Below are positions 1,808 to 37,790 of a stretch of DNA of 37,790 nucleotides, one piece after another; positions within the stretch are counted from its first letter, which is position 1; each line of letters begins with the position of its first letter. Source of the stretch: an uncultured Selenomonas sp. (lineage in GTDB: Bacteria; Bacillota; Negativicutes; Selenomonadales; Selenomonadaceae); assembly GCA_905234515.1 (NCBI GenBank), contig CAJOIN010000002.1, positions 2,091 through 39,880 of the forward strand. The letters are read 5' to 3'. Under the pieces are notes generated by a model, which saw only the letters and a program-made list of their open reading frames with translations, made no database searches and was not told the origin of the DNA. The translations under genes and the position numbers were made by a program.

Positions 1808-2990
1808 GTTCCGGCAATTCCTGTGATCCTTTGGCAGGCCGCAGATAGTACTGGGCTGCCGACAGCAGGAGGAACAGGGCCATGAGGCTGAAGATGGCGT
1901 AAAACATACCTGTAAAGCCCACCTGCCCGGCTACGGCTCCCAAAGCGATGAGGCCTGTGCTGGTGCCTATGTCCAGCATATTGTAGAAAGTGGCGCTGGC
2001 GGCGCTGTGGCGTGAGGAAGCTACGCTGTTCAGCATCCAGGTGAGGAGTGCCGGCAGGAGTGCCCCTGCCCCCAGGCCGTAAAACACGGAGGAGAGCAGG
2101 AGGCCTGCGAGGCTGCCGGAGTAAATCATCAGTGCAAGGGCCATGAGGTAGGAAACTGCCCCGGGCAGCACCACCGCAAAGGCGCCGTATTTATCCAGCA
2201 GCCGGCCACCGAAGGGACGGGAGATAAAGACGAAGATGGTGCCCACGATGAAGAACAGCCCGGCATTATCAATGCCTTTTTCCGCCGCCAGCATGGCAAT
2301 GTAAGTGTTGACGCTGCCATAGCCTGCGCCGAAGAGGATGGTCAAAAGAGAGGCACCGGCAGTGCCCTGCTCACAGAGGCGGTTCTTGATGGAGGAGCGG
2401 ATGGGGGAGGCGGCGTTGATGCCTGCAGGGGCCTTTTTCGTCCGGCAGAGCCAGGCCATGAGGATGGCAGCAGCGCTAAAAGACATGGAAGCAGCAAAGA
2501 GCAGAGCGGGGCTCTCCTCCAGCAGCCAAAGTCCCAGGGCAGGAGCCAGGGCCATGGCCACAGTGCTGCCCATGCCAAAGTAGCCGATGCCTTCCCCCCG
2601 GCGGGAGGCAGGTATCACATCAGCAGCCATGGCAGCGGCAAAGGTTGTGGAAAGGCCGAAGCCAAAGCCGTGGATGACCCGGGCCAGGATGATGGCATTG
2701 ATGCTGGTGAAGAAAAGGTACCCCAGCACTGCCAGTATGCAGAGGCCGAGGCCTGCATAAAGGCATTTTTTCTTGCCAAAGGTCCGCACTCCCGTATCAG
2801 TGAACAGGCGGATAAAGATGGCTGAGTAGCCGAAGATCCCCCCAATCAGCCCCAGCTGCAGGCCCGTAGCACCCAGGGAAGAGGCATAGATGGTGATGGT
2901 GGGCAGGAGAAAGTGGAACCCGGCAAAGAGAAAGCCATTGGCTCCAATCAGGGCGAGGAAATTCCTCGTCCAAAGTTTTTCCGTGGACAT
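1785..2990 (-). CDS. MFS transporter
   Basis: Twelve-TM-like MFS protein (MSTEKLWTRNFLALIGANGFLFAGFHFLLPTITIY...). Start trimmed to ATG at 2990, preceded by AAGGAAG RBS. Overlaps the marR ORF. Confidence 0.88.
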   Translation of the reverse strand: MSTEKLWTRNFLALIGANGFLFAGFHFLLPTITIYASSLGATGLQLGLIGGIFGYSAIFIRLFTDTGVRTFGKKKCLYAGLGLCILAVLGYLFFTSINAIILARVIHGFGFGLSTTFAAAMAADVIPASRRGEGIGYFGMGSTVAMALAPALGLWLLEESPALLFAASMSFSAAAILMAWLCRTKKAPAGINAASPIRSSIKNRLCEQGTAGASLLTILFGAGYGSVNTYIAMLAAEKGIDNAGLFFIVGTIFVFISRPFGGRLLDKYGAFAVVLPGAVSYLMALALMIYSGSLAGLLLSSVFYGLGAGALLPALLTWMLNSVASSRHSAASATFYNMLDIGTSTGLIALGAVAGQVGFTGMFYAIFSLMALFLLLSAAQYYLRPAKGSQELPELAEAEDA

Positions 2991-3015
2991 GAAGACGCTT
3001 CCTTTCATTTGGTAA

Positions 3016-3060
3016 ATTGACATGTCAATCAATATAGCAGATTTAGATTGACATGTCAAT
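3016..3060 (-). promoter_or_regulatory. Two perfect 14-bp palindromes (ATTGACATGTCAAT) over a consensus promoter for the MFS-marR operon
   Basis: ATTGACATGTCAAT at 3016-3029 and 3047-3060. Minus-strand -35 TTGACA (3054-3059), 17-bp spacer, -10 TATATT (3031-3036). Confidence 0.85.
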
Positions 3061-3236
3061 TTTCGACCGTTTTTATGCATGTATTGCTTTTGCGGGAGAG
3101 GCTGGCCATTGGGGAGGATATTCTGGGACTGCTCTTGCTGTGCATCGGCATCGGCTCCCTCCTCACCATGCCCATGTCCGGGGCGGCAGCAGTGCAGTTT
3201 GTCATTGCGTGGTATGTGTACAGGAAGGTGCTTTGA
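3048..3236 (+). pseudogene. MFS transporter remnant
   Basis: RERLAIGEDILGLLLLCIGIGSLLTMPMSG resembles the TM1-TM2 region of a YbjJ-like MFS protein, then runs directly into an unrelated short tail; only 62 aa. Confidence 0.5.
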
Positions 3237-3305
3237 AGGGAGGATTTTGCCCCTGCTGGGGCGAAGTAGGCAGACAGGTTGGAATGTGTATGGAGGAGAG
3301 GTCTT

Positions 3306-3704
3306 ATGGAAACGAGCAAGCGTGCAGAAGCAGGCGTGGAATTCAAGCGTAAGAACAACTGTGCCCAGGCGGTACTATTGGCTTTTCAGCCGGAAACAGG
3401 TATGGAAGAGGATATACTCAAGGCCATGGGCTCTGGTTTTGGTTCTGGCATGGGCGGCATGGAAGCTACCTGCGGAGCACTATGCGGTGCAGGCATGGCT
3501 GCAGGGCTTATCAACAAAAGCAATACGCCAACCAAGATGTTCTGCAAGGAAATGCTCCAGGATTTCAAGGCTGTTGCTGGTGTCACCATCTGTGGTGATC
3601 TGAAGGGCATAAAGACTGGGAAAATGCTCTTTAGCTGTGACGACTGTGTGAGACAGTCAGTACTCGGTTTGGAAAAACGCCTGGGGAAAATGGCTGAAAA
3701 CTAA
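3306..3704 (+). CDS. C_GCAxxG_C_C family (putative redox) protein
   Basis: NCAQAVLLAF...GSGFGSGMGGMEATCGALCGAGMAAGL...C...CDDCV pattern. ATG at 3306. Confidence 0.85.
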   Translation: METSKRAEAGVEFKRKNNCAQAVLLAFQPETGMEEDILKAMGSGFGSGMGGMEATCGALCGAGMAAGLINKSNTPTKMFCKEMLQDFKAVAGVTICGDLKGIKTGKMLFSCDDCVRQSVLGLEKRLGKMAEN

Positions 3705-4278: not shown

Positions 4279-4559
4279 AGACGTATCGCGTTTATCAGGT
4301 GGACTCCTTCACCAGGCAAAAGTTCTCCGGCAATCCGGCTGGGGTGGTGTCTAATGCCGATGGCTTGACCGAACAGCAGATGCAGCAGCTGGCCCGGGAG
4401 CTTAACAATTCTGAAACGGCCTTTATATTTGCGGGGCAGAAGCCAGACTATGATGTGGAGGTGCGGTATTTCACCCCTACTACGGAGGTGCCAATCTGCG
4501 GTCACGCCACCATTGCAGCACATTATGTAAGAGCGGTGGAAGGGAAACTGCCTGCGTAG
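4275..4559 (+). pseudogene. Truncated PhzF-family isomerase/epimerase
   Basis: MKTYRVYQVDSFTRQKFSGNPAGVVSNADGLTEQQMQQLARELNNSETAFIF...FTPTTEVPICGHATIAAHYVRA is a PhzF N-terminus. It stops at TAG (4557-4559); the frame continues as IEYSIGTVKILLDIF before a second stop. Confidence 0.75.
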
Positions 4560-4726
4560 ATTGAGTACAGCATCGGGACTGTCAAAATACTGCTGGATAT
4601 ATTTTAACCTAAACAGGAAAAGTCTATAAGTTTGCCGAAGAAAACAAAGAAGACTGGCAATTAACAGGCAGTATTAAAAGGAGAGACCAAAAGTATTGGC
4701 ATTGGCAAAGGTTGGCGGGGGATTAT

Positions 4727-5497
4727 ATGACGGAAGAGATGCTCAAGAATTTTTTGAGAAAATACAAGGAAGGCCAGATTCCTGATGAGGAGGCTGCTTC
4801 AGCCTTGGGAAAGCTTTTTGTGGAGGAAATGGGGTTTGCAGCGGTGGACCATATCCGGGAACTCAGGCAAGGGTTCCCGGAAGTGGTATACGCAGAGGGC
4901 AAGACCAAGGAGCAGGTAGCTGCTATCATGGAATCCCTTTATGAGCGGGGACAGGGCAATATCATGGCCACGCGGGCCAGCCGGGAAAAATATGATTACG
5001 TGCAGAAACTGCTGCCGGAGGCCCGGTATGATGAGACCGCCAGAATAATTTACATTGAACGCAAGGCTTTGCCTGCAGAAAAGGACGGACGCTATATACT
5101 CATTGTCACTGCAGGAACCAGCGACATTCCCGTGGCTGAAGAAGCCAGGCTTACCGCACGGTTGTGGGGGAATGAAGTGCATACCTGCTATGACTGCGGG
5201 GTGGCAGGCATCCACCGCCTGTTTGCCCATTTGGAAGAAATCAGGAAGGCCAATGTCCTTATTGTAATTGCTGGCATGGAAGGTGCCTTGGCCAGTGTGG
5301 TGGGCGGCCTTACGGACAAGCCTGTCATTGCTGTGCCCACCAGTGTGGGCTATGGAGCTTCCTTTCAGGGAATGGCAGCCTTGCTTTCCATGCTGAACAG
5401 CTGTGCCACAGGTGTATCAGTGGTGAATATCGACAACGGCTTTGGCGCGGCCGTCATGGCCAGTAAAATCAATCATTTGAGCAGAGGGGAAGAATGA
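4727..5497 (+). CDS. larB: Nickel-pincer cofactor biosynthesis protein LarB (AIR carboxylase-like)
   Basis: GFPEVVYAEGKTKEQ...MATRAS...VTAGTSDIPVAEEA...CGVAGIHRL...GMEGALASVVGGLTDKPVIAVPTSVGYGASFQGMAALLSMLNSCATGVSVVNIDNGFGAA. Confidence 0.92.
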   Translation: MTEEMLKNFLRKYKEGQIPDEEAASALGKLFVEEMGFAAVDHIRELRQGFPEVVYAEGKTKEQVAAIMESLYERGQGNIMATRASREKYDYVQKLLPEARYDETARIIYIERKALPAEKDGRYILIVTAGTSDIPVAEEARLTARLWGNEVHTCYDCGVAGIHRLFAHLEEIRKANVLIVIAGMEGALASVVGGLTDKPVIAVPTSVGYGASFQGMAALLSMLNSCATGVSVVNIDNGFGAAVMASKINHLSRGEE

Positions 5498-8665: not shown

Positions 8666-9412
8666 ATGGATGATATTGTAAAGCTGGCAGATATACTGCA
8701 TAAGAGCAAGAACATTGTCTTTTTTGGCGGGGCTGGGATGTCAACGGAGTCCGGTATTCCAGATTTCAGGAGTTCCAAGGGATTGTACAATCAAAAGCTG
8801 GGCCGGCAGTTTTCACCTGAGGAGATGGTGTCCCATAGCTTTTTCCTGGATCATACGGAAGAATTCTATTCTTTTTACAGGGAGCATCTGATTTATCCCC
8901 AGGCCAGGCCGAATGATGGGCATAAAGCTTTGGCGCAGTTGGAAAGACAGGGCAAGCTGAAGGCTGTCATTACCCAAAATATCGATGGCCTGCACCAACT
9001 GGCTGGCTCCACAAATGTCATTGAGCTCCATGGCTCGGTGCTGAGGAATTATTGCATGGAGTGCCATGAGGCTTATGATGCAGCTTACGTGGTGGAACAC
9101 AGGCCTGTACCCTGTTGTAAAGCCTGCGGTGGCATAGTGAAGCCGGATGTAGTGTTGTATGAGGAACCGCTGGACAATGAGTTGCTGGAAAAGGCAGTCA
9201 GGGCCATTGGGGAGGCGGATACTCTGATTATCGGCGGCACGTCTCTGGTGGTTTATCCAGCGGCGGGGCTCATAAAATATTTCCGCGGCCAAAATCTGGT
9301 GATAATCAACAAAGACACCACCAAGGCAGATGAAGATGCCGATTTGGTGATACATGATTCAATCGGCAAAGTGTTGAAGTCAGCCGTGGAAAAAGCATTT
9401 AGCGAGATGTAG
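8666..9412 (+). CDS. cobB: NAD-dependent protein deacylase, Sir2 family
   Basis: FFGGAGMSTESGIPDFRSSKGLY...TQNIDGLHQLAGS...ELHGSV...CMEC...CKACGG. Confidence 0.93.
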   Translation: MDDIVKLADILHKSKNIVFFGGAGMSTESGIPDFRSSKGLYNQKLGRQFSPEEMVSHSFFLDHTEEFYSFYREHLIYPQARPNDGHKALAQLERQGKLKAVITQNIDGLHQLAGSTNVIELHGSVLRNYCMECHEAYDAAYVVEHRPVPCCKACGGIVKPDVVLYEEPLDNELLEKAVRAIGEADTLIIGGTSLVVYPAAGLIKYFRGQNLVIINKDTTKADEDADLVIHDSIGKVLKSAVEKAFSEM

Positions 9413-9428
9413 ATTAGTTGAAATAAAT

Positions 9429-9500
9429 AATAAGACTCTATTGACTCATTTTAGACTGGATGATATTATCTAGTTATAAATGAGTCAATAGAGTCTTATT
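9429..9500. promoter_or_regulatory. Perfect 23-bp inverted repeat over face-to-face promoter motifs upstream of the RND efflux locus
   Basis: AATAAGACTCTATTGACTCATTT (9429-9451) is the exact reverse complement of 9478-9500. Plus strand TTGACT (9441-9446)-17-TATTAT (9464-9469); minus strand TTGACT (9483-9488)-17-TATCAT (9460-9465). Confidence 0.8.
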
Positions 9501-12796: not shown

Positions 12797-13333
12797 ATGG
12801 CTTACGATAGAGATGAATTGCTGGCAAAGCTGGCTCGGGCCCTGGCCCAGAATCCCGGCAGCAGCATGAAGGAGTTGGCAGAGGAGGCAGGCATCAGCAA
12901 GGCCAGCCTTCACCGCATCTATTCCACCCGGGACAGCCTGTGCCAGACATTGGTGGAGCATACGACGCATATACTTGTTGACCTGATGGAACTTTTGCGG
13001 CGGGAACATCATGACTTTGACGGGGAACTGAAGGAATTGATTGCCTTCTATGTGAAGCATGACGCCTTTGTGCTTTTCATCGGCCGGGAGGCCTTTGTCC
13101 AGATGATAGACGAAGCGGTCTGGGACAGCTGCGATGAGGCGTTGGCCTCCTTCTTCCGGGGCGGCAAAGAGGCAGGAGCCTGGCGGGCAGATTTTTCTTC
13201 AGAGGAAATGAGGGATATCTTCAGAAGCCTGGTGGTGGGAATCCTGGAACATAATCTCTGGGATGGCAAGTATGGCAAGACAGCAGAAAAGCTGATCTAC
13301 AGGGCTTTGCTGGGAGGAATCGCCTCCAAATGA
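12797..13333 (+). CDS. TetR-family transcriptional regulator
   Basis: N-terminal HTH: LAQNPGSSMKELAEEAGISKASLHRIYSTRDSLCQTLVEHT; ATG 12797 after AGGAGAG. Confidence 0.88.
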   Translation: MAYDRDELLAKLARALAQNPGSSMKELAEEAGISKASLHRIYSTRDSLCQTLVEHTTHILVDLMELLRREHHDFDGELKELIAFYVKHDAFVLFIGREAFVQMIDEAVWDSCDEALASFFRGGKEAGAWRADFSSEEMRDIFRSLVVGILEHNLWDGKYGKTAEKLIYRALLGGIASK

Positions 13334-13337
13334 GAAA

Positions 13338-13382
13338 ACAGCAAAAAGCGGCCGTATGAGCAGTACGGCCGCTTTTTGCTGT
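13338..13382 (+). terminator. Strong intrinsic terminator after tetR
   Basis: ACAGCAAAAAGCGGCCGTA-N7-TACGGCCGCTTTTTGCTGT, 19-bp stem with an internal T5. Confidence 0.85.
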
Positions 13383-13482
13383 GTATTGTATTTAGGAGAG
13401 CTTAACGAAAGCCTGGATATAATATAACACAGATGATATTGATTATCAATAGCTAAATGAAAAATATTTTCAAATAAAATGA

Positions 13483-33348: not shown

Positions 33349-33369
33349 TGCTCTTATAAATATGGTAAA

Positions 33370-33620
33370 AGCAATGCGGAAGACATGATGTCTGCGGCAG
33401 TCTCTTCAGAGAGCGGGGCCTTGGCTGAAAGCCCTGTGGGAAAAAGCAGATGATTACCCCTTCCAAGCTGCAGGGCCGAAGCCTTTGGTGGGTAGGTCTT
33501 GCCGGAGCAATCTCCGTTAAAAATGTCCAAAGTGGCTCTGAGTTTTCAGGGCAAGCAGGGTGGAACCGCGAGTTTGTGACTCGTCCCTTCATTAGATTGA
33601 AGGGGCGGGTCTTTTTTAGT
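33370..33620 (+). ncRNA. T-box leader (probable Thr specifier ACC) with terminator
   Basis: T-box core AGGGTGGAACCGCG (33557-33570); Stem I AGAGAGC...CTGAAAGCCC; terminator GACTCGTCCCTTCA...TTGAAGGGGCGGGTCTTTTTT; directly precedes thrS. ACC near 33456-33458. Confidence 0.92.
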
Positions 33621-36885: not shown

Positions 36886-36896
36886 CTGATTTCAAG

Positions 36897-36953
36897 TGGT
36901 GCCGGAAATCGGACTTGAACCGATACGTTGTTGCCAACGCCAGATTTTGAGTC
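36897..36953 (-). other. 3' fragment of tRNA-Leu(CAA): anticodon loop to CCA, candidate att site
   Basis: Minus strand GACTCAAAATCTGG-CGTTGGCAACAACG-T-ATCGGTTCAAGTCCGAT-TTCCGGC-ACCA: anticodon loop CTCAAAA, variable arm CGTTG/CAACG, T-arm, acceptor 3' strand. No matching 5' half is adjacent. Confidence 0.88.
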
Positions 36954-37066: not shown

Positions 37067-37087
37067 GTTAGTATCAAGTTAGTATCA
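37067..37087. repeat. Short tandem direct repeat GTTAGTATCA
   Basis: GTTAGTATCA-A-GTTAGTATCA, about 115 bp from the tRNA fragment. Confidence 0.6.
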
Positions 37088-37157: not shown

Positions 37158-37190
37158 AAGCCCGTCTGTGTGGTAGACGGGTCTTTTTTT
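37158..37190 (+). terminator. Intrinsic terminator with no upstream CDS in the island side
   Basis: GCCCGTCT-GTGTGGT-AGACGGGTCTTTTTTT. Confidence 0.85.
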
Positions 37191-37259
37191 ATGGAAAGGC
37201 TGCCGCCATAACTTGATACATTCCCTGCTCAGAACAGCCACGGCTCACCACCTGGGAAA

Positions 37260-37790
37260 GCTGCCAATGCTCTTATGCAGAGCGTCCTTTACACGAAATG
37301 GCAGCCCTCTATGGGGCTCGATGGTTGCCCTCGTCCATGAGGGATTATTATTTGTAGTGCTCATCCATGAGCACGGTCATCCTTGACGTTTTTTGGTGCC
37401 CCCGTCCCTGGGGGCACGGCCCGCAGCTGGCCCGCGGCAGGGCTGTCACGGGGCTTTGGTGGGCACGTCGCCCACGTCGCTCCGTCACAGCCCTGCCGAA
37501 ACTCACGCTTCGGAGGGCGGGAGTTCGCCTCGCAGGACACATCTTCCCTTGGTGGACAGGCTTCACTTCGTCCCTTCCAGCCCAGAGCTGACCTTACGAC
37601 CAGCTCCGGGCCTGCAGGGACTACGTTCCCGCCTGTCCAGTCGGTCAGAAGTGTCTGCTCGGGGTTCGGGGGGCTTCGGTTTCCTTGTTCACGCTTACGG
37701 CTGCGACGTTCAGCTGTGCTCGTCCTCCGATAGTGCCATTACGCCTATCAGGGGCGGAGAGGGGGGGCGGCGTTCCTTCCACTCATGACG
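37260..37790. other. GC-rich, hairpin-dense noncoding region; candidate structured RNA or palindromic repeat element, continues beyond the window
   Basis: Consecutive palindromes at 37269-37283, 37303-37318, 37328-37343, 37357-37374, 37396-37417, 37436-37497, 37585-37606, plus long-range GGACAGGC/GCCTGTCC and GGACAC/GTGTCT pairs. Confidence 0.65.

Follow-up and report, generated by a model that had tools for sequence, protein, structure and literature searches.

A hairpin-rich tract at the end of a Selenomonas contig as the probable outer half of an arm of a tyrosine-recombinase element

We analysed a stretch of 37,790 nucleotides from an uncultured Selenomonas sp. (hereafter the window), and we focus on the hairpin-rich tract that closes it. 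The most probable reading, to which we give a probability of about 0.6, is that this tract represents the outer half of a left arm, belonging to a tyrosine-recombinase mobile DNA element that is nested just inside an integrated island. Such an element would consist of a Cre/Xer-type recombinase gene lying between two imperfect inverted arms of about 1 kb, largely made of DNA palindromes. We infer that the element's own recombinase acts on these palindromic ends, and four hairpins at the outer end of the arm would be its likeliest core sites, whether double-stranded or extruded. The window copy may be a lone arm, or a complete element that the assembly truncated.

An earlier note had described nested pairings from position 37430 on. 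These pairings are indeed present: 37436-37451 pairs with 37482-37497 (15 of 16 positions) around an inner GTGGGC/GCCCAC hairpin (37459-37464 with 37470-37475), while GGACAC/GTGTCT (37535-37540 with 37651-37656) encloses GGACAGGC/GCCTGTCC (37554-37561 with 37631-37638) and GAGCTG/CAGCTC (37585-37590 with 37601-37606). In 37430-37790 the top inverted repeat has a score of 14, where none of 200 dinucleotide shuffles exceeds 11, and the fold of 37160-37790 reaches -300 kcal/mol for a shuffle mean of -250 (z -5.6; 0 of 20 shuffles). The existence of a structured tract thus stands and its start has to be moved, from 37430 to near 37195, just after a terminator-like hairpin. It was also rightly said to run off the window edge: the last base is the end of the assembly contig C2 (39880 of 39880), so the window-genome assembly holds no flanking sequence and the far end is missing. 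The tract is non-coding as far as can be told, its two overlapping ORFs having no Pfam match, and it adjoins a tRNA-derived island attachment site, both as previously proposed. Elsewhere in the window, the strongest inverted repeats, at about 9400-9500 (score 23) and 13300-13400 (score 19), score higher than those of the tract and are probably terminators, and the Rfam scan placed a T-box leader (RF00230) at 33365-33591.

We refer to the window genome as G000, to two genomes of the same genus as G001 and G003, and to a genome from a second genus of the family as G031. The homologous copies are L017 (G001, contig C2), L018 (G001, contig C8), L019 (in G003) and L020 (G031, contig C38). The features of the window copy are the following.

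36895..36953, minus strand: 3' half (anticodon-loop to acceptor end) of a tRNA-Leu-like gene, read from the sequence
37068..37087, plus strand: direct repeat, two copies of TTAGTATCA with an 11-bp period, resembling integrase arm-type sites
37160..37190, plus strand: terminator-like hairpin with a T-run, before the element (from sequence and fold)
37194..37327, plus strand: left arm, outer segment, within a 353-bp, 91%-identical match to L017
37328..37343, plus strand: outer hairpin 1, loop GTCCAT (alignment A1)
37357..37374, plus strand: outer hairpin 2, loop ATCCAT (alignment)
37376..37387, plus strand: outer hairpin 3, loop ATCCTT (alignment)
37396..37417, plus strand: outer hairpin 4, loop GTCCCT (alignment)
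37435..37498, plus strand: long hairpin of the earlier note, a module confined to left arms
37535..37656, plus strand: nested hairpin of the earlier note, a variable module
37722..37790, plus strand: 5' half of a large hairpin (GTCCTCCGATAGTG..CGCCTATC), from alignment with other copies

The arm thus lies downstream of the tRNA-Leu fragment and the two TTAGTATCA repeats. The fragment, which ARAGORN did not call because it is incomplete, can be read as the putative attachment-site remnant of an integrated island; it is the part held in common with unrelated phage and plasmid records, and comparing the window end with phage and plasmid DNA gave no match beyond it. At the position equivalent to the TTAGTATCA pair, analogous but different pairs are found in G001 C2 (two copies of GGCTACACA) and on contig C278 of the window genome (two copies of GACTTACT), and terminator-like hairpins of other sequence also precede the element in L017 and C278. 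The outer segment has partial copies in L019 and C278, and the right-arm copies of L018 and L020 begin close to outer hairpin 1. The long hairpin falls within a 122-bp stretch of 97% identity to L018; the nested one is replaced by an unrelated hairpin in other copies; the 3' partner of the large hairpin, past the contig end here, is seen in other copies.

The complete form of the element is known from a single genome, G001, in which two large copies (L017 and L018) have the order left arm, recombinase gene, right arm. It measures about 3 kb, with a hairpin-rich left arm of about 1.2 kb and a right arm of about 1 kb. In L017 the arms (left, about 2200-3460; right, about 4390-5422) are inverted copies of each other, at 74% over 647 bp and 83% over the outer 107 bp, and between them a minus-strand gene encodes a 307-aa tyrosine recombinase. 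This protein carries a Phage_integrase domain (PF00589, E 2.8e-15) and a SAM-like N-terminal domain; its best PDB match is Cre and its best NCBI models are XerC/XerD. The gene of L018 is shortened at its start and retains residues 59-307 only. The two copies are 94% alike over 1776 bp, their alignment ends at the unit ends and their flanks are unrelated, so that one unit is found at different places. The window contig ends before the position of the gene, and no copy of it was detectable in the window-genome assembly.

Many relatives of the recombinase, at about 42% identity, are encoded on plasmids; the three that were inspected have no such arms, and searches of viral contigs and genome contigs gave no useful relative. 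Recombinases of related genomes, at 48% identity, lacked arms in 29 inspected loci and had no RTCCNT hairpins nearby. More broadly, a tyrosine recombinase about 42-50% identical to the element enzyme (L022-L050 and others), with no inverted arms at the inspected loci, is single-copy in most of the 67 matching genomes (of 189 family genomes) and in some cases adjoins a gene reading as polynucleotide phosphorylase; it looks resident rather than mobile.

Two of the five congeners searched have homologues of the tract, as does one genome from a different genus of the family. A DNA search of 60 related genomes matched only G001, G003 and G031, a set left unchanged by 189 family genomes, and of 383 genomes of the class, G000 and G001 alone contained an exact motif of the arm. 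Across nine genomes, the hairpin-pattern matches lay, with one exception, within the element loci, and in viral contigs just one unrelated phage-like contig matched, with an array of GGGGGCACGGGTGCCCCC. Past their 353-bp match, the window and the left arm of L017 are again 89% identical over 37 bp, with a different hairpin in between. L019 and L020 are lone and decayed arms, G003 holding decayed pieces. In its own genome the tract is single-copy, except for a self-palindromic match and a 54-bp match of its outer segment at the end of C278, so that a REP-like dispersed repeat family, the earlier note's equal alternative, is not supported. At C278 4267-4442 (L083), direct repeats, a terminator and the first 50 arm bases reach the contig end, and this is a possible second copy in the window genome.

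The genomic settings of the copies indicate how the element is placed. The G001 C2 copy belongs to a 7.7-kb island that is delimited by a 16-bp direct repeat and has GGCTACACA repeats close to either end; an integrase remnant stands at one end, and the element at the other. On C278, the GACTTACT repeats are followed by the terminator and then by the arm start. The element is therefore often close to an island end, and it is found elsewhere in L018 and L020. L018 adjoins an IS-type transposase and a truncated host gene, and its right arm begins in the last codons of a gene that is intact in G002 and G005, while the left flank differs. The right arm of L020 begins at a stop codon: in G031 an arm of about 300 bp stands alone between phoH and a restriction-type defence operon, immediately behind the stop codon of the latter. 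The right arm of L017 borders on a remnant of this operon. A defence island on G031 C38 (L020 370-3927, L079 69-5350), which has the lone hairpin arm at phoH as its border, carries Z1-domain helicase, GIY-YIG, MzaC/D/E-like and type II restriction-like genes. Within the arms, outer hairpin 4 of L018 is split at its loop by a module that has hairpins of its own (about 1857-1920), and a similar module stands in place of the 5' half of this hairpin in L019 (about 1620-1700). No clean empty site or target duplication was obtained among the compared loci, and in the PhoH-based empty-site comparison of G031 relatives the upstream regions were non-homologous.

These settings bear on a first alternative, in which the arms would terminate an integrated island, or a plasmid-like ancestor, and would have a role in replication, dimer resolution or boundary insulation, with the recombinase as a plasmid-type resolvase. 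Three islands with an arm just behind the attachment site and terminator speak for it, as do the many plasmid-borne relatives of the enzyme. However, L018 sits in a different setting, next to the transposase and the truncated host gene, and the lone G031 arm stands at a core gene, so the unit moves apart from island ends; we consider this explanation unlikely.

The reading as a mobile element with palindromic arms also depends on whether the pairing was selected as DNA or as RNA. There is moderate evidence that the stems are kept by compensatory change. Double-changed pairs number 12 in the inner arm, 8 in the large-hairpin module (whose covariation score of 0.204 compares with 0.090 after shuffling and no more than 0.065 after sliding) and 2 in the outer hairpins, counts that are inflated by related rows; in outer hairpin 2, for example, the window has T-A where other copies have C-G. 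The informative copies number only about five, from two genera, and they fall into two tight groups, left arms and right arms, so that few independent events underlie the covariation. The compensatory changes between left and right arms speak against gene conversion alone. If an RNA were under selection, G-U should be tolerated on its strand more often than A-C. Among the pairs predicted on both strands, a requirement that biases the set toward Watson-Crick, 707 are Watson-Crick, 1 is G-T, 3 are A-C and 8 are other, and the union set, which is looser, likewise has G-T and A-C in similar numbers (24 vs 20). The excess of G-T over A-C is thus not seen in the arm pairs and, although the numbers are small, this points to DNA palindromes rather than to a one-stranded RNA.

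The ROOL/GOLLD-like RNA proposed in the earlier note is not supported either, the pairing having no strand bias and no Rfam match rising above chance with E values up to 5 allowed. Gathering and permissive Rfam scans of the region returned only unrelated, mostly miRNA-type chance matches far below the cut-off; GOLLD, ROOL, OLE, HEARO and the other Rfam RNAs all failed to reach the gathering threshold. The arm does resemble GOLLD, ROOL and OLE in its large multibranched predicted fold and mobile-island setting, but it differs from them in being part of an inverted-repeat DNA element. The first reading missed this element because the window stops in the middle of the arm, the inverted arms around a recombinase being visible only in the homologues.

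All four tandem outer hairpins, whose stems differ, have a 6-nt loop that is RTCCNT or nearly so. RTYCNT loops are found in 3 of the 4 perfect hexaloop hairpins of the window arm, and none of the 59 elsewhere in the window has one. Tyrosine recombinases usually act on palindromic sites built around a short asymmetric centre. Given that a recombinase gene is linked to the arms and that the arms are symmetrical, we favour a recombinase core site, with inverted arms and a 6-bp asymmetric centre, over a CsrA-type loop. The palindromes span 6-8 bp, and usual core arms are longer (11-13 bp). Since the related recombinases are armless and have no RTCCNT hairpins nearby, comparison does not support the link between hairpin and site.

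The same loops can be read on the other strand, and a second alternative would make the tract an island-borne structured non-coding RNA, for example one that titrates CsrA, as do the CsrB/RsmZ RNAs, through ANGGA-type hexaloops. Such an RNA would come from the minus strand of the left arm, that is, the plus strand of the right arm: the reverse complement of RTCCNT is ANGGAY, set in 6-nt loops on differing stems, and tandem hairpins with GGA in their loops recall CsrB/RsmZ. Read-through transcription is plausible, the arms lying directly after gene 3' ends in several copies. A CsrA gene is present in 4 of the 4 genomes with the element, which says little, as these genes are common. However, this strand offers only 3-4 such loops, few for a CsrB/RsmZ-like RNA, and one right-arm loop is AGGAAC, not ANGGA; an RNA gene has no need of an inverted arm pair, and the Rfam and strand-bias results stand against a non-coding RNA. 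We regard this alternative as distinctly unlikely.

Compared with known tyrosine-recombinase elements and plasmid Cre/Xer-type recombinases, the element has the PF00589 recombinase in common, and it differs by the hairpin-array arms of about 1 kb that flank the gene. In integrons, too, a tyrosine recombinase goes with hairpin DNA placed right after gene 3' ends, as in attC sites, whose structure is kept while the sequence varies. Here, unlike in integrons, the enzyme is closest to Cre among structures and to XerC/XerD among NCBI models, and the arms, which come as inverted pairs, are much longer and contain no single attC-like unit; the RYYYAAC/GTTRRRY consensus was not seen at the hairpin bases when read by eye. 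One could still imagine a distinct kind of mobile unit, in which whole cassettes are moved by a Cre-like recombinase acting on arrays of folded hairpins that share a 6-nt centre and lie directly behind genes, in parallel to but independently of integrons, and in which these cassettes include restriction-type defence operons (in G031, and in remnant form in G001), a joint proposal that we hold to be speculative and rather improbable. Streptomyces-type linear replicon telomeres, which are terminal inverted repeats full of palindromes sharing a loop motif, also resemble these palindrome-packed arms, a lead only; unlike them, the arms are chromosomal, lie inside contigs and go with a tyrosine recombinase, no terminal-protein gene being seen in the element.

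To our knowledge, no described tyrosine-recombinase element ends in kilobase-long inverted hairpin arrays, and the literature on such elements with long inverted arms yielded no match. If the reading as a mobile element with palindromic arms is right, some bacterial mobile elements would end in inverted hairpin arrays a kilobase long that are selected as DNA, and the shared loop would be a concrete candidate for their recombination site. It would also mean that dense covarying hairpins near island ends can mimic large ornate RNAs, and that the strand symmetry of their pairing helps to tell the two apart.
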